IMG/VR virus record: IMGVR_UViG_3300009285_001845
Location: 1-56,027 of that record
Strand: one strand, 5' to 3'
Length of the DNA stretch: 56,027 nt
DNA from: a virus
Below the pieces are notes generated by a model, which did no database searches, was not told the origin of the DNA, and saw only the letters and a list, made by a program, of their open reading frames with translations. Position numbers and translations under genes: made by a program. Numbering within the stretch: the stretch's first letter is position 1; each line of letters opens with the position of its first letter. Below, piece after piece: positions 15,888-54,135 of this stretch.

Positions 15888-16163
15888 TCAGGCGTCCGCG
15901 AGGGTTGCTTCGGGCTCTAACACGCCCGGGTGGCCGTCCGCCTGCGGCGACGCGAACACGGTCTGGTCCGGTTCGAGCCGCATGATGACCCGGTCCCCTA
16001 TGGCAAATAGCGTATCGATGCCAGGGCGCAGCGTCATGAACAGAATGGCGCAAAACGCCCCTTCCTGGTTGTTGTCAGACACAATGGTCAGCCGCTGGGA
16101 CTCGTGCCCAGAGACGTTGGTGAGCTCCACACCCTTCACGCGCATCGCGATTCGGTCGTTCAT
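15888..16163 (-). CDS. hypothetical protein
   Basis: Has 91 residues, MNDRIAMRVKGVELTNVSGH..., predicted mostly beta, with an acidic Ala-rich tail. A clear ribosome binding site (AAGGAGG) precedes the ATG, which overlaps the stop of the NUMOD4 remnant. It lies in the replication region; no family recognised. Confidence 0.6.
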   Translation of the reverse strand: MNDRIAMRVKGVELTNVSGHESQRLTIVSDNNQEGAFCAILFMTLRPGIDTLFAIGDRVIMRLEPDQTVFASPQADGHPGVLEPEATLADA

Positions 16164-16498
16164 GTCGCGCCCTCCTTGTTATTGATGGCCCACGTAAAGG
16201 CCGATTTTCCAGTGATCACGCTACGTACACGCCTCTCTTGACTCGCTGAATCTCTCCATGTCGCACTAGCCGCGACAACCGTCTTCCTGCAGCCGTCGAC
16301 CATAACCGTGACCTTCGCGTATGCGCCTCTAGGCGTCGAACCAATCACACGCCCTGCCCACGTCAATCGGCCAGGCTCAGTCCGGCGAATACGACCAAGA
16401 GAACTGGCCTCGTATCCTAGGTATCCAGGAATAGGCCGCCATTCTTCATGCGCTACTTGGCTTTCCACGTGTACACCCGTCTCTTTGTGATTGAACAA
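16160..16498 (-). CDS. NUMOD4-containing remnant of an HNH endonuclease
   Basis: Has 112 residues: EEWRPIPGYLGYEASSLGRIRR is a full NUMOD4 DNA-binding module, as found at the start of many HNH homing endonucleases. After the expected strand VTVMVDGCRKTV the HNH core (HRLVA...HxDG...NN...NL) is missing and replaced by an unrelated Ser/Arg-rich end. It is therefore a decayed endonuclease. Both ends overlap neighbouring genes by a few bases, so the deletion restored a compact operon. Confidence 0.6.
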   Translation of the reverse strand: MFNHKETGVHVESQVAHEEWRPIPGYLGYEASSLGRIRRTEPGRLTWAGRVIGSTPRGAYAKVTVMVDGCRKTVVAASATWRDSASQERRVRSVITGKSAFTWAINNKEGAT

Positions 16499-16830
16499 AT
16501 CCGTTTCTGGTATCGCTCAACAAGATCGTGTTTCTCAGCCTCGTGAAGCCTTGGACGTACGGCATTTATGTCAAACGCTGCACCCTCTTCCGCCATCGAT
16601 CGGTACAACTCATAGGCCGTGGGCCACACTCGGTGCACCGCCCAGAACCGCCGGAGCCCGATGAGGACCGCCTGCTCCCGGGCCGGTAGGGTGTCCGCGA
16701 GTTCCCGGTAAACGCTGAGGGAGGTCGCTGCAATCTGCTTCACAACCGGCCGCGGCGCAAACGTCTCAGCCACATCGGCGGCCGGTTCCGGGTTCATGAT
16801 GTCGAAGAGGGTATCGGCGTGCTTCAGCAT
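16453..16830 (-). CDS. winged-helix-like hypothetical protein
   Basis: Has 125 residues, helical, with REQAVLIGLRRFWAVH, the phage-typical WPTAYELYRSMAEEG and a basic end (RYQKRICSITKRRVY). The pattern suggests a small winged-helix DNA-binding protein in the replication region. It overlaps the methyltransferase gene upstream by seven bases. Confidence 0.55.
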   Translation of the reverse strand: MLKHADTLFDIMNPEPAADVAETFAPRPVVKQIAATSLSVYRELADTLPAREQAVLIGLRRFWAVHRVWPTAYELYRSMAEEGAAFDINAVRPRLHEAEKHDLVERYQKRICSITKRRVYTWKAK

Positions 16831-19544
16831 CCGGCCGACTCCGAGGCGAACAGCGGCGCGACAGCGCCGATCCGGCGTTCCGCAATGGCGATGTATTCCG
16901 CTTCACGCTCGATCCCGATGAACGACCGCTGCTCGTATCTGCAGGCCATCCCCGTTGTCCCTGAGCCCATGAATGGATCAAGACAGGTGCCGTTGATCGG
17001 CGTGACGAGCTTCACCAGCCAGCGCATCAACTCGACCGGCTTCACCGTGGGATGAAAGTTCAAACCGCCGCCAGTGCGCCCAGCCCCAGCGCGCGGGTTG
17101 TTGAGGCCAGCGCTGCCGTCCTGTCTGTCCGTGCATTCGCCAGCGGTGCGCGTGGCGAGTCCGCCGCAGCCGTAATCCCGTTCTTCGCGGGAGGGTTTGG
17201 CGACGTAGTAGAAGCGGGATGCTCCGCCGATACTGCCGTCGTGCGGCGCTTCGGCCTTCGTGCCTTCAAACGCGCCGTACACGTTCCGCGTCTTGTCGGT
17301 ATGGCGCTCGCCTGAATAGCTGCCACTCACCAGCTCCCCGCTCTGTTCGTCCAGCACCATCGCCGCGCCGCGTCTAACCGTCCTTCCTGTCGGCTCGAAA
17401 TACTCTAGCCAGCCGTGCGGGATGCTTGATTCCAGAACTTCGAGAGTTCGGCCCTGAGCCGTTCGTTCTCCCCGCGCAGCTTCCTCAACTCGCGCACCAA
17501 GGATTGATGCGTCCGTTTGTGGGTAGCGTTGTCGTGAAGTTCCAGATTGCGATAGCGGTTGTCCTGCTTGTTGCCGTTCCGGTGATGCACCACCTCTGCG
17601 GGCAATAACGGGCGCCCCAACTTCCGCGCCACCACGAGACGATGCTCCGGTATGTATTGGTGATCGCGCTTTCCCACCATCGGTGCGAATAGCCGCTGCT
17701 CCTTCTCCGGCAGGGTCGTAATCAGCACCATCACATAGCCGCGCGCGAGATGCGTTCCGCCCTTCCATTGCGAACTGGCCGGCCCCCGCAGCCCCGCCGC
17801 GATCTTCGTCCGGCGCATTTTGGCGATCGAGTCCGGCCGATGCTTCCTGCCGAACATCGGATGCTTGGAGCCCGTCTGATTCGCGCTCATCCAGGCCCAG
17901 TAGCAAGCCTTCTTGCAGAAGGACGCCTTCCCCTGTTTCACTCGGACCGGATACGTCTCGAAGGAAGTTAGGCATTGCCGACAGATCGCCGTAACCATTG
18001 AAGTACTCCCTGATAACGCGCCCAGCGTCACCAAGGATATTGTATCTCAAACGTAATACTTGTTCATGCCATTCGTCCAGCGCGACGTTGGCAGGCCAGC
18101 GGCCGAGATCCATGCGTCCGACATAGCCGTCGATGGACTTTTGCACGTCACCAGTGCGCGCGAATGTGGACGTGCCTTGCAGTCCGTTATGGCTTGTTCT
18201 TTGCGCTGCTGCTGCTGCTGCTGCTGCTTGATCCTCGTCTGAGGCAAATTCAATTCTGCAGGCGTCGATGTTTAGCGCCCCGGTGCCGTGCTGCTCGACG
18301 TTCGCAGCTACGGTGCCGCGGAATGGCTTCCTGGCGATGGCGATTGGTTCGTACGATGGTTTAAGAGCCGTCCCGAGACCGGCTGGAACCACAGGTTTGC
18401 CGCACCGACCGCAAGGCGTCCACCTTCGTGTAGCTTGTGGCTCTGATTCGTCGGCCAGAGCGACAGATTGATGCGCTCGTTCCGGCGCGTGTTGTGGTCC
18501 TCGTGATGCACCACCTCGCGGCGCGTCAAGGACCTGCCGACCCATCGCGCCATGACGATCCGGTGCTCCATTACGTAACCGTCCGACCTCGCCATCGCGC
18601 CGAACTCCGGCGGGCACCTGACATACTTGGGGCCGATGTAGTTCCCCTTGTTCCGTTTGAACGTGACGCCGCCCTTCCAAGCCGGATTCGACGCTCCGTA
18701 TTGGGGCTGACGCCTGCGACCCTTCATGTTTCCGGAGAACCTGATCAGGTGTTTCGCTCTGAGTGTCCCGTTGCACCGCCGGGAACATACCGGCGTCGTG
18801 ACTCGCGCTCGATGGCTTAGCGGCCGATGAAAAGCCGTCCCGCAGACCGCACACGTCGTCTCCGGCGGCGTCTTCCTGCGTGGATAGGTCCTGGACGCCA
18901 GCGAGCACGGCATCGAACAATACCGATTCCGCGTCGCCTGATACCTCGTCTTCGGCATCCACTCCAGGCGGCAGTGTTCGCAGGTTTTTAGTGGCATCAC
19001 ATTGACAGAATCGTGGATCAGCACTGACGTTGAGGCTTTTTGGAAACCCCTGACCGAAACCCCAGAACAGCATAGCGTCCCTGATCTCAAAGCCAGCCTC
19101 CTCGAGCCCACTCATCATGCGGTGGTGCGAGCGCGGCGCCCCACACACGACAATGTAAGCCCCAGGTTTCAGCACGCGGTACGCAGCCCGCGCCCAATTC
19201 GCCGTCCAGGCCTGGAAGGACTCTTGCCCAGCCAAGGTCCTGTCGTATTCGATCTGACTCGGTGACACAGCCGGTGAACGACGGCGCCCGTGAAGGTTTG
19301 GGTTATCCGACACAATCGGCTGCTCATAGCGTTCGGACTGCGCGACCTCTCCAGGCTTGAACGTGTCCCATTCCTTTCCCATGAACCCGATCCCGTAGGG
19401 CGGATCCGTCACGCAGGCGTCGATTGAGGCATCCGGCAACGTCGCCATCTGCGCAATGCAATCGCCTGCCAGGATCGTTACCTGCACGTAGGACACCCAA
19501 GCGCCGGATTGGTCGCATACACCGTCCGCCGGCAGCAGCGCCAC
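16824..19544 (-). CDS. beta-class DNA methyltransferase with two internal insertions
   Basis: Has 906 residues, about twice the usual size. The motif order is that of beta-class N6-adenine/N4-cytosine enzymes: motif IV TDPPYGIGFMGKEWD near residue 50, TALKPSYEPI near 400, HPTVKPVELM near 835 and SAM-binding LDPFMGSGTTG near 860. Two stretches of about 200 codons (around residues 183-385 and 495-715) look like no methyltransferase; in another frame each encodes an HNH endonuclease. The long frame has no stop through either. If translated it carries two large meaningless loops in the target-recognition region. Starts at GTG 19544. Confidence 0.85.
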   Translation of the reverse strand: MALLPADGVCDQSGAWVSYVQVTILAGDCIAQMATLPDASIDACVTDPPYGIGFMGKEWDTFKPGEVAQSERYEQPIVSDNPNLHGRRRSPAVSPSQIEYDRTLAGQESFQAWTANWARAAYRVLKPGAYIVVCGAPRSHHRMMSGLEEAGFEIRDAMLFWGFGQGFPKSLNVSADPRFCQCDATKNLRTLPPGVDAEDEVSGDAESVLFDAVLAGVQDLSTQEDAAGDDVCGLRDGFSSAAKPSSASHDAGMFPAVQRDTQSETPDQVLRKHEGSQASAPIRSVESGLEGRRHVQTEQGELHRPQVCQVPAGVRRDGEVGRLRNGAPDRHGAMGRQVLDAPRGGASRGPQHAPERAHQSVALADESEPQATRRWTPCGRCGKPVVPAGLGTALKPSYEPIAIARKPFRGTVAANVEQHGTGALNIDACRIEFASDEDQAAAAAAAAQRTSHNGLQGTSTFARTGDVQKSIDGYVGRMDLGRWPANVALDEWHEQVLRLRYNILGDAGRVIREYFNGYGDLSAMPNFLRDVSGPSETGEGVLLQEGLLLGLDERESDGLQASDVRQEASAGLDRQNAPDEDRGGAAGAGQFAMEGRNASRARLCDGADYDPAGEGAAAIRTDGGKARSPIHTGASSRGGAEVGAPVIARRGGASPERQQAGQPLSQSGTSRQRYPQTDASILGARVEEAARGERTAQGRTLEVLESSIPHGWLEYFEPTGRTVRRGAAMVLDEQSGELVSGSYSGERHTDKTRNVYGAFEGTKAEAPHDGSIGGASRFYYVAKPSREERDYGCGGLATRTAGECTDRQDGSAGLNNPRAGAGRTGGGLNFHPTVKPVELMRWLVKLVTPINGTCLDPFMGSGTTGMACRYEQRSFIGIEREAEYIAIAERRIGAVAPLFASESAGC
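17405..17998 (-). CDS. HNH endonuclease nested out of frame in methyltransferase gene (second insertion)
   Basis: Has 197 residues from MVTAICRQCL. The N-terminal zinc finger CRQC...CKKACYWAW is followed by a NUMOD3-like KHPMFGRKH, then the HNH core YIPEHRLVVARKLGRPL and VVHHRNGNKQDNRYRNLEL and a coiled-coil end. The start has AGGGAG seven bases upstream, so it can be translated on its own. Same strand as the methyltransferase but a different frame. Confidence 0.87.
   Translation of the reverse strand: MVTAICRQCLTSFETYPVRVKQGKASFCKKACYWAWMSANQTGSKHPMFGRKHRPDSIAKMRRTKIAAGLRGPASSQWKGGTHLARGYVMVLITTLPEKEQRLFAPMVGKRDHQYIPEHRLVVARKLGRPLLPAEVVHHRNGNKQDNRYRNLELHDNATHKRTHQSLVRELRKLRGENERLRAELSKFWNQASRTAG
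18205..18228 (-). repeat. trinucleotide tract (AGC)8
   Basis: Eight GCT units on the plus strand (AGC on the minus strand), read as eight alanines in the methyltransferase frame between CRIEFASDEDQ and QRTSHNG. Being a multiple of three it changes loop length but not frame. Confidence 0.9.
18308..18997 (-). CDS. HNH endonuclease nested out of frame in methyltransferase gene (first insertion)
   Basis: Has 229 residues from MPLKTCEHC. Three Cys pairs at the start (CEHC, CSMPC, CAVC...CSRRC) form zinc fingers. The HNH core is VMEHRIVMARWVGRSL, VVHHEDHNTRRNERINLSLW, followed by HKLHEGGR. The last 40 codons overlap genuine methyltransferase sequence (CGRCGKPVVPAG in the other frame), which marks the right edge of the insertion. 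No strong ribosome binding site was seen. Confidence 0.85.
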   Translation of the reverse strand: MPLKTCEHCRLEWMPKTRYQATRNRYCSMPCSLASRTYPRRKTPPETTCAVCGTAFHRPLSHRARVTTPVCSRRCNGTLRAKHLIRFSGNMKGRRRQPQYGASNPAWKGGVTFKRNKGNYIGPKYVRCPPEFGAMARSDGYVMEHRIVMARWVGRSLTRREVVHHEDHNTRRNERINLSLWPTNQSHKLHEGGRLAVGAANLWFQPVSGRLLNHRTNQSPSPGSHSAAP

Positions 19545-52481: not shown

Positions 52482-52879
52482 GTGGCCATCCGTTGTATCG
52501 TCGGGCTTTGTGGCATCCGCGTCGCCACCTGGCCGGCCAGTGACACCGCCTCGTACACGTGTCCGGTCTGCAACTGCAAGAGTGCTAAGTTGATCTCGCC
52601 AACCGCTCGCCCGACGATCTGTTCCTCACGGGATCGCCCCGGAGCTTGAGCGAGACGGATCCCGGTTTCGTACGCCTCCGTGGCGAGCGCCTCGTCGCCA
52701 TCGATCACGTACTGTTTCCCGAGGTTGATCCACGGCCTCGGCTTGAGTGGCGCGTGGGCCGCGGCGTCGACCCACAGCGCCGGTTCATTCGTCCACAGAG
52801 GGACCCGCTCCTGGCTGGTGATGACGGTCCAGAGGACCGCCACCACCACCACCGCCGCGATGCGGACCCCTCGCCACAT
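52454..52879 (-). CDS. membrane-anchored TPR protein, possible partner of the glycosyltransferase
   Basis: Has 141 residues from MWRGVRIAAVVVVAVLW (membrane helix), then VPLWTNEPALWVDAAAHAPLKPRP, NLGKQYVIDGDEALATEAYE and NLALLQLQTGHVYEAVSLAG, two TPR units. Trp-rich linker followed by TPRs equals the C-terminal part of TMTC-like proteins. The start overlaps the upstream stop (TGATG) and the stop overlaps the enzyme gene by 28 bases. Confidence 0.6.
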   Translation of the reverse strand: MWRGVRIAAVVVVAVLWTVITSQERVPLWTNEPALWVDAAAHAPLKPRPWINLGKQYVIDGDEALATEAYETGIRLAQAPGRSREEQIVGRAVGEINLALLQLQTGHVYEAVSLAGQVATRMPQSPTIQRMATWIGAHQSE

Positions 52880-53385
52880 CAGCCCGTCCGGTTGAAGCTG
52901 TCCCATGTCAGGGGCAGCGTGTTGGTCCCGCGCCATCGGCTGTTCGACGCCATACAGTTCCAGATGTTGCCGTTGCTGGTATTCACCCACGGTTGGATCG
53001 CGGCCTGCCCGCTGCCGCGCGTGCAATCCTGCGAGAAGTCCGGATCCACCTGCTTGAAGTCGTTGTTCTGCGCAGTGACCAGGATATTCGTCGCGTTATC
53101 ATGCGCCCGCTGTTGGGTCCCGTCCACGCCGCGGCCAATACGGATCAGCGTGGCAGTGCCAGCGGCACCACCAATCAATTCCTGGATCCGCACGACTTCC
53201 CAGTCGATCAGCACGAGTTGTCCCACGACAAAGCCCGTGGAACTCGTGACCGTCATCGTGGTGTCGGTCGCAGCCAGGTTCGCGTTCAGCGTGGTTGCCG
53301 TCAGGAGCCGCTGCGCCTGGGCTGGCAGAGCACTGAGCAGCAGGAGTGCCGCGGCAGTGCTCAGCATCCGCATCGTTGTTTTCAT
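52879..53385 (-). CDS. secreted beta-rich protein
   Basis: Has 168 residues from ATG 53385, with AGGAAGGAG five bases upstream. Sec signal MKTTMRMLSTAAALLLLSAL, cut near AQAQ; then TATTLNANLAATDTTMTVTS and FVVGQLVLIDWEVVRIQEL, a beta domain of a type usual in phage structural proteins, with two Cys pairs in the second half. The same frame is open upstream into the GIY-YIG gene. A signal peptide on this domain is odd and may put it in the host envelope as a glycosylation substrate (inference). Confidence 0.65.
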   Translation of the reverse strand: MKTTMRMLSTAAALLLLSALPAQAQRLLTATTLNANLAATDTTMTVTSSTGFVVGQLVLIDWEVVRIQELIGGAAGTATLIRIGRGVDGTQQRAHDNATNILVTAQNNDFKQVDPDFSQDCTRGSGQAAIQPWVNTSNGNIWNCMASNSRWRGTNTLPLTWDSFNRTG

Positions 53386-54123
53386 CACTGTCTCCTTCCT
53401 GTTTCGATGCGGGTGTCGTCGTGCCACCTCATCGGCTTTACGTTCTGGCGTCAGCGACGCCCACCATGCGCGTTTCTTTTCAGCGATTTGTCCGCCTTGA
53501 TTGAATCCGCGCCGGCTGACTTCAAACGCCTTTTGCTCTGGCGAGAGAGATGCCCACCAAGCGCGCCGATGTCGTGAGTTGGCGTGTCTTGCTTCCGGAG
53601 TGTTTCGCGTCACCTTCAGCCGCGCCTTCGCTGCTTCCGACCACGGAATGCCCTTGTTCCTGGCTTCACGCACAATACCGCTGGCTTCTTCGCGTGCGCG
53701 CCGTTTGAGCTGGCCCTGACGGCATGCTTCTCGAAAGTCCTCAGTCATGACCTTCCCCTTCGACCATGGCACCCGCCCAGTATTGGCGCGAGACATGATC
53801 GCGCGCTGCTCTGGCGGCATCTGCCAACCGTAGTTGCCAGGCCCGCCCCCAGCGATGTTGTAGCCGTTGGGCGACAGTGCACCTCGTTCGAGAATCAGTC
53901 GGCGTTCGAGTTCGACCAATTCCTCGTACGTGGTGGCCGTGGCCAACGGCTCGATGCGAAATGCCTTCGCGCCGTACGTCCGCATCGCGTTGTACAGCGG
54001 CGTCGTCAGACCGTGCCGAAACGCAGCCTGACGATGCCGAGCCATCCGTGAGGCAAGCGATCGGACGGTGATGCCGACGTACTCTTTGCCCGTGATCGTG
54101 TTGAGGATGCGATAGACAGTCAT
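52879..54123 (-). CDS. GIY-YIG homing endonuclease, frame continuous with the secreted protein
   Basis: From ATG 54123 (AGGAGG eight bases upstream; ATG 54129 also possible). The GIY-YIG part is VYRILNTITGKEYVGITVR, with LASRMARHRQAAF and TYEELVELERRLIL, followed by NUMOD3-like repeats (SRANTGRVPWSKGK, RRAWWASLSPEQKAFEVSRR, KKRAWWASLTPERKADEV). No stop occurs before the ATG of the secreted protein at 53385, so ribosomes could make a fusion of about 414 residues. The endonuclease proper is about 54123-53386. Confidence 0.85.
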   Translation of the reverse strand: MTVYRILNTITGKEYVGITVRSLASRMARHRQAAFRHGLTTPLYNAMRTYGAKAFRIEPLATATTYEELVELERRLILERGALSPNGYNIAGGGPGNYGWQMPPEQRAIMSRANTGRVPWSKGKVMTEDFREACRQGQLKRRAREEASGIVREARNKGIPWSEAAKARLKVTRNTPEARHANSRHRRAWWASLSPEQKAFEVSRRGFNQGGQIAEKKRAWWASLTPERKADEVARRHPHRNRKETVMKTTMRMLSTAAALLLLSALPAQAQRLLTATTLNANLAATDTTMTVTSSTGFVVGQLVLIDWEVVRIQELIGGAAGTATLIRIGRGVDGTQQRAHDNATNILVTAQNNDFKQVDPDFSQDCTRGSGQAAIQPWVNTSNGNIWNCMASNSRWRGTNTLPLTWDSFNRTG

Positions 54124-54135
54124 GTGCATCGCCTC

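Follow-up and report, generated by a model that had tools for sequence, protein, structure and literature searches.

Two HNH genes nested in an open methyltransferase frame

We analyzed a 56,027-nucleotide stretch of viral DNA (positions 1 to 56,027 of IMG/VR record IMGVR_UViG_3300009285_001845), referred to here as the window. The virus encodes a P22-type coat protein. On the minus strand, a frame of 906 codons without a stop encodes an N6/N4-DNA methyltransferase (MT) (Table 1). Its start codon is uncertain and the true start probably lies a little further in. The protein retains the conserved columns of aligned relatives, including DPPY and DPFxGSG, and the catalytic motifs DPPY and FxGxG of N6/N4 DNA methyltransferases are present. 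Two HNH genes lie inside this gene on the same strand, both offset by +1, that is, one base ahead of the MT frame. This arrangement had been proposed in a preliminary description made from the sequence alone, and we could confirm it for both genes, with 0 stops in the MT frame. PHROGs assigns an HNH endonuclease to both nested ORFs while the Pfam domains HNH_3 and NUMOD3 were found in HNH-B only. For HNH-A, which had no Pfam match, the assignment is supported by PHROGs and close relatives alone (60% identity to the nested gene of L136 and 54% to that of L142; L numbers denote sequences compared with the window). A scan for HNH-A across GTDB genomes yielded nothing, and no obvious Shine-Dalgarno sequence could be seen for this gene.

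The preliminary description had further suggested that relatives without insertions could define the insert edges. Such relatives, empty at these sites, were found (L011, L012, L032 and L020, without either insert) and were used to set the edges. Within the MT protein, insert A is flanked by GFPKSLNV on one side and GLGTALKP on the other, and insert B by GRWPANVALDE and AAMVLDEQSG. The HNH-A ORF overruns the 3' edge of insert A by 73 nt and therefore overlaps conserved MT codons. Only a few relatives have an HNH gene where insert B is located (L027, L316 and L130). HNH-B weakly matches the HNH located within the ShiLan methylase (ca. 29% identity), to which it is distantly related.

Table 1. 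Features of the methyltransferase locus in the window (window positions).
Feature	Position	Strand and frame	Support
N6/N4-DNA methyltransferase (MT) frame, both inserts included	16824..19544	minus	PF01555 E=4e-29; PHROG 67
Insert A	18381..19025 (edges +/- about 10 nt; 215 codons)	minus	absent from L011, L012, L014, L032
HNH-A gene	18308..18997	minus, +1 vs MT frame	PHROG 20891 E=8e-18
Putative zinc clamp, 5' half (Cys180-x-Cys182)	18999..19007	minus, MT frame	co-occurrence of CxC and CxxC in site-A segments
Putative zinc clamp, 3' half (Cys378-x-x-Cys381)	18402..18413	minus, MT frame	co-occurrence; Cys codons vary only at MT wobble base
Insert B	17370..18071 (edges +/- about 20 nt; 234 codons)	minus	absent from L011, L020, L032
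HNH-B gene	17405..17998	minus, +1 vs MT frame	PF13392 HNH_3 and PF07460 NUMOD3 above cut-offs
Shine-Dalgarno-like AGGGAG, 7 nt ahead of HNH-B ATG	18006..18011	minus	read from sequence

Two other ORFs of the window carry nuclease-related domains. Directly downstream of the MT gene, a short NUMOD4-bearing ORF (16160-16498) is perhaps the remnant of a third homing-type endonuclease, and an ORF with a GIY-YIG nuclease domain (52879-54129) adjoins the P22-type coat protein gene.

Absence of stop codons from the methyltransferase frame

Stop codons were counted in the other frames over both HNH spans, a check put forward in the preliminary description. The MT frame alone is free of stops (0 in each span); the antisense frames contain 3-10, and the third same-strand frame contains 7 and 6. 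Expected values were obtained by a permutation test in which synonymous codons were shuffled for 100,000 rounds while the HNH protein and its codon counts were kept fixed. For the MT frame, this test predicts 5.24 stops in insert A (P=0.00086) and 4.86 in insert B (P=0.0011) where none are seen; for the third frame, it predicts 6.6 and 6.4 where 6 are seen. The earlier argument that an open shadow frame occurring twice is unlikely to be due to chance is thus borne out at a P value of about 0.001 per gene, with a normal third frame. In the +1 register, a host-frame stop requires a T at the HNH wobble position preceding a codon that starts with AA, AG or GA. In the two window HNH genes, a wobble T is found at 0 of 37 such positions compared with 35% elsewhere in the same genes. 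In the remaining genes of the window, such stops are avoided only slightly (264 vs 298 expected).

One competing account attributes the open frame to G+C-rich codon usage together with the HNH protein sequence, as a side effect without any selection. Both window HNH genes have a GC3 of 0.76-0.78, high GC3 makes this particular shadow frame the easiest one to leave open, and of 164 200-codon windows taken from ordinary genes of the window, 7 are indeed open in it. Permutation, however, preserves both protein and codon usage and still gives the low P values above. We extended the comparison to other nested HNH genes, which were gathered mainly via HNH similarity or methylase motifs and not via open frames. 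The survey comprises 235 distinct segments covering site A, the site of insert A. Of these, 59 are HNH-bearing and form 42 clusters at 70% identity while 176 are HNH-free. Nested HNH genes share ancestry and survey counts are consequently not independent.

Among HNH-bearing segments, the host frame is open in 56 of 59, with 0 stops where 366 would be expected, while control frames of these 56 cases are at expectation (567 stops vs 528). Openness is not confined to G+C-rich sequences: the AT-rich L002 has 0 host-frame stops compared with 10.4 expected, and L145 and L130 are likewise AT-rich and open. Wobble T before AA, AG or GA occurs at 0 of 531 positions in nested genes of the +1 register (51% elsewhere in them). 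The corresponding values are 50% vs 54% for free-standing HNH genes and 33% vs 37% for nested genes at +2, where this T is irrelevant. The preliminary description had named comparable open shadow frames in free-standing HNH relatives as the result that would refute it, leaving composition as sufficient cause. This test did not refute it, given that in the 41 free-standing relatives with a GC3 of at least 0.6, the +1 frame is open in 1 and the +2 frame in 0. A G+C artefact is rejected based on permutation, AT-rich open cases and free-standing controls, and we regard the by-product account as scarcely credible. The absence of stops goes far beyond chance.

Openness is not universal. Three hosts (L401, L414 and L424) contain 12, 10 and 9 stops in the host frame at site A, compared with 11.3, 11.2 and 9.9 expected under a neutral rate, indicating that stops build up freely once the frame has been lost. 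A further exception is a second HNH gene in the MT gene of L002 (L002:4074-4505), which, in contrast to the first one, disrupts the host frame and has no Rfam match. L401 (2393-2992) has both cysteine pairs described below at its insert ends together with its 12 host-frame stops and appears to be a decayed case.

Selection might also keep the frame open for the benefit of HNH expression rather than of the host enzyme, for example by coupling translation of the two genes, escaping Rho-dependent polarity or allowing frameshifts from MT into HNH. The lack of a clear ribosome-binding site for HNH-A would fit such a role, as would the location of most nested HNH genes on the host strand. HNH-B, however, has its own AGGGAG, and several HNH ORFs start right at an ATG. 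In five segments, the HNH gene is antisense to its host (L126, L127, L380, L395 and L419): the host frame is open in 5 of 5, with 0 stops vs 15.9 expected, and the cysteine motifs persist as well. Translation of the host strand is useless to an antisense HNH gene, yet these host frames are open and host-frame cysteines are selected, which points to a methylase that is made and folded with the loop. HNH expression as the cause of openness is accordingly disfavoured by the antisense cases as well as by the conservation of the cysteine codons in the host frame, and we consider it improbable. Selection on the host reading, as claimed in the preliminary description, remains as the supported explanation (0 vs 366 stops in 56 of 59 cases; 5 of 5 antisense cases) although the long protein itself is inferred.

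Distribution and inferred mobility of the inserts

Both viral contigs and bacterial assemblies (L204, L216, L222 and L223) contain nested HNH genes. They are not restricted to one methylase class, with L199 and Constella carrying HNH genes nested in C5 methylases whose host frame is again open. In L199 (2306-3880) and L119 (1641-3095), the HNH gene lies at +2 within a C5-cytosine methylase and the host frame is open; L199 is AT-rich and has 0 stops vs 3.2 expected. Many MTs, including L053, L091, L117 (BigNuz) and L444 (TwoPeat), have an in-frame extra segment of ca. 80 residues at site A and no HNH gene.

The inserts are patchily distributed and absent from close homologues. The nearest MT relatives of the window enzyme (64% identity for L011, followed by 57%, 57% and 55%) are empty while the nearest homologues of HNH-A occupy distant MTs. 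Similarly, L002 and L144 are 69% identical in their HNH proteins compared with 37% in the MT core. Judged from these sequence comparisons, the distribution and the incongruence between HNH and MT fit homing; homing activity itself is inferred.

Conserved cysteines at the ends of insert A

To separate what is conserved for the HNH protein from what is conserved for the MT, amino acid identity among relatives was compared with simulations that impose HNH conservation and an open frame. In the insert interior, MT-frame identity was 0.303 vs 0.277 simulated, and the third frame showed the same small excess (0.326 vs 0.305). Amino acid-level selection on the loop interior was therefore not found, MT-frame identity being no higher than HNH conservation forces it to be. 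It follows that the HNH protein is conserved while the MT reading is merely kept stop-free.

The situation is different at the insert ends, where conservation extends to the MT-frame residues themselves. A CxC motif at the start and a CxxC motif at the end of the insert occur together in the MT frame of 48 of 59 HNH-bearing site-A segments, compared with 0 of 176 segments lacking an HNH gene (Fisher 9e-40). Any differences among relatives at these cysteine codons are confined to the third codon position of the MT (TGT/TGC), corresponding to the second position of the HNH codon; across the HNH interior, variation is highest at the wobble position of the HNH codons. The cysteine codons are thus under selection in the host frame. 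The motif pair accompanies antisense HNH genes (L126, L127, L380, L395 and L419) and HNH genes of a different type (Optimus, SG4, StellaBean and Molly). Insert B has no such cysteine clamp.

Based on motif pattern and codon evolution, we infer that CxC and CxxC form a zinc clamp that closes the base of the loop at site A. Metal binding is an inference for which neither binding data nor distances are available. In an AlphaFold model of L359, C149/C151 and C302/C305 are located in blocks with pLDDT values of 77 and 87 while the loop between them is at 36-45, so that support from modeling is limited to local confidence. The model of the window enzyme has a confident core, with inserts at pLDDT values of about 30-40, and is uninformative for the loops.

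The clamp might be a property of the host site and not of the element. Openness would then be real, with the cysteine pairs marking an MT subtype preferred by these HNH genes. Different HNH types found with the clamp at one site look as if the site owned it. Both motifs, however, are found in 0 of the 176 HNH-free segments. Clamp-bearing MTs without an HNH gene were detected neither with a dedicated clamp profile nor among ordinary homologues of phage and plasmid origin. In addition, L129 carries the whole CxC-HNH-CxxC unit elsewhere, immediately ahead of SGFPKS, and its regular site A is without the motif. We thus consider ownership by the host site rather unlikely, though not negligible, and favor a clamp that is part of the element.

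Proposed mode of persistence

HNH genes are commonly carried by group I introns, and the inserts might be introns or inteins of an unrecognized type that are removed from the MT. Inside an intein-like MT segment of L172 (2452-3399), L193 (1362-2420) and L223 (1205-2038), an HNH gene of the same family does lie out of frame; the segment shows a YG|CLxEDTEIL start, gives a weak Pfam intein match in L193 and has an open host frame. The intron reading was dropped because no Rfam match was obtained in the window at E values up to 1, nor in L002, L209, L130, L136 or L199. The intein reading was dropped as well since no splicing domain, that is, no Pfam or NCBIfam intein family, was detected on the 906-residue window protein. 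Moreover, an intron needs no open frame, and neither intron nor intein needs terminal cysteines that vary only silently. Removal by splicing is therefore very unlikely, in line with the earlier claim that the arrangement is unlike introns or inteins.

We instead propose that both inserts are non-spliced homing elements whose host MT frame is held open so that the loop is tolerated, with a clamp at site A only. We hold this to be likely even in the absence of RNA, protein or activity data. Each insert would represent an HNH endonuclease gene placed at a conserved position within a phage MT gene in another reading frame. The HNH protein, presumably translated from its own internal start codon, would cleave the conserved site of empty alleles, and repair would copy the insert into the cut allele. 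The element would be removed from neither RNA nor protein. Instead, the stop-free host frame would allow an MT to be made with an extra loop of ca. 200 residues, the interior of which is otherwise unconstrained. At site A, the CxC start and CxxC end supplied by the element in the host frame may bind a metal ion, pin the two ends and pinch the loop off from the enzyme while the clampless insert B must be tolerated in some other way. Tolerance via a stop-free host frame is strongly supported by the selection evidence; translation of both proteins and retained enzyme activity are inferred. Whether this amounts to a third lifestyle for a mobile gene in a coding gene, in addition to introns and inteins, seems to us evenly balanced. 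Such a lifestyle would combine a zinc staple with stop-free filler in the host frame and no splicing, where the staple moves together with the element and the HNH cargo can be swapped or inverted.

A homing gene that is not spliced out could survive within an enzyme gene in this way, and the idea becomes testable through the proposed zinc clamp. Many phage methylase annotations of 600-900 aa contain passenger loops of 200 residues while the HNH genes are missed because annotation usually permits one frame.

Comparison with known systems

The general arrangement is already published as the ShiLan domain (2023/2025). These papers describe an out-of-frame HNH insertion in mycobacteriophage methylases, note the open frame, propose a non-interfering loop and find no splicing element (PMC9957025, PMC11855218). 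The window resembles this system in its out-of-frame HNH genes in a phage methylase, stop-free host frame, lack of intron or intein features and patchy distribution. It differs in position, given that the ShiLan insert lies within the EPI..ARKP motif region and splits the M motif region while inserts A and B occupy other sites, and in register (+1 compared with +2 in ShiLan). Unlike ShiLan, the window has two inserts in one gene, a clamp in insert A and a phage with a P22-type coat protein. Separately, the ShiLan paper reports no detectable ribosome-binding site for the HNH; in L112, L122 and L123 (ShiLan, Starcevich and MISSy), we note a GGAGG 4 nt ahead of a GTG as a possible ShiLan HNH start.

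Out-of-frame HNH genes in the same general or a similar arrangement, each in another phage and at another site, are described for Pacc40 gp60 (PMC11855218) and the Applejack methylase (PMC12613952). In the GenBank records of StellaBean, Molly and Constella, the HNH is annotated as a separate gene within a methylase gene. StellaBean and Molly share the site of insert A and its clamp, and their HNH belongs to another type (PF01844, as tested on Optimus), while the host in Constella is a C5 methylase, unlike the N6/N4 host of the window.

The ShiLan publications, to the extent that their text was accessible, report no selection test, antisense case or clamp (PMC11855218; PMC9957025). Within the same limits, new aspects of our analysis are the presence of two elements at two other sites of a single gene, formal selection evidence (56 of 59), antisense and AT-rich cases, the putative clamp and spread beyond actinobacteriophages. 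At scale, selection is seen to maintain two overlapping readings through a selfish insert, for which only qualitative evidence existed in case of the ShiLan domain. HNH-bearing inteins and group I introns likewise carry homing endonucleases at conserved positions of coding sequences. In their case, splicing regenerates the host product whereas the host frame of the window simply reads through.
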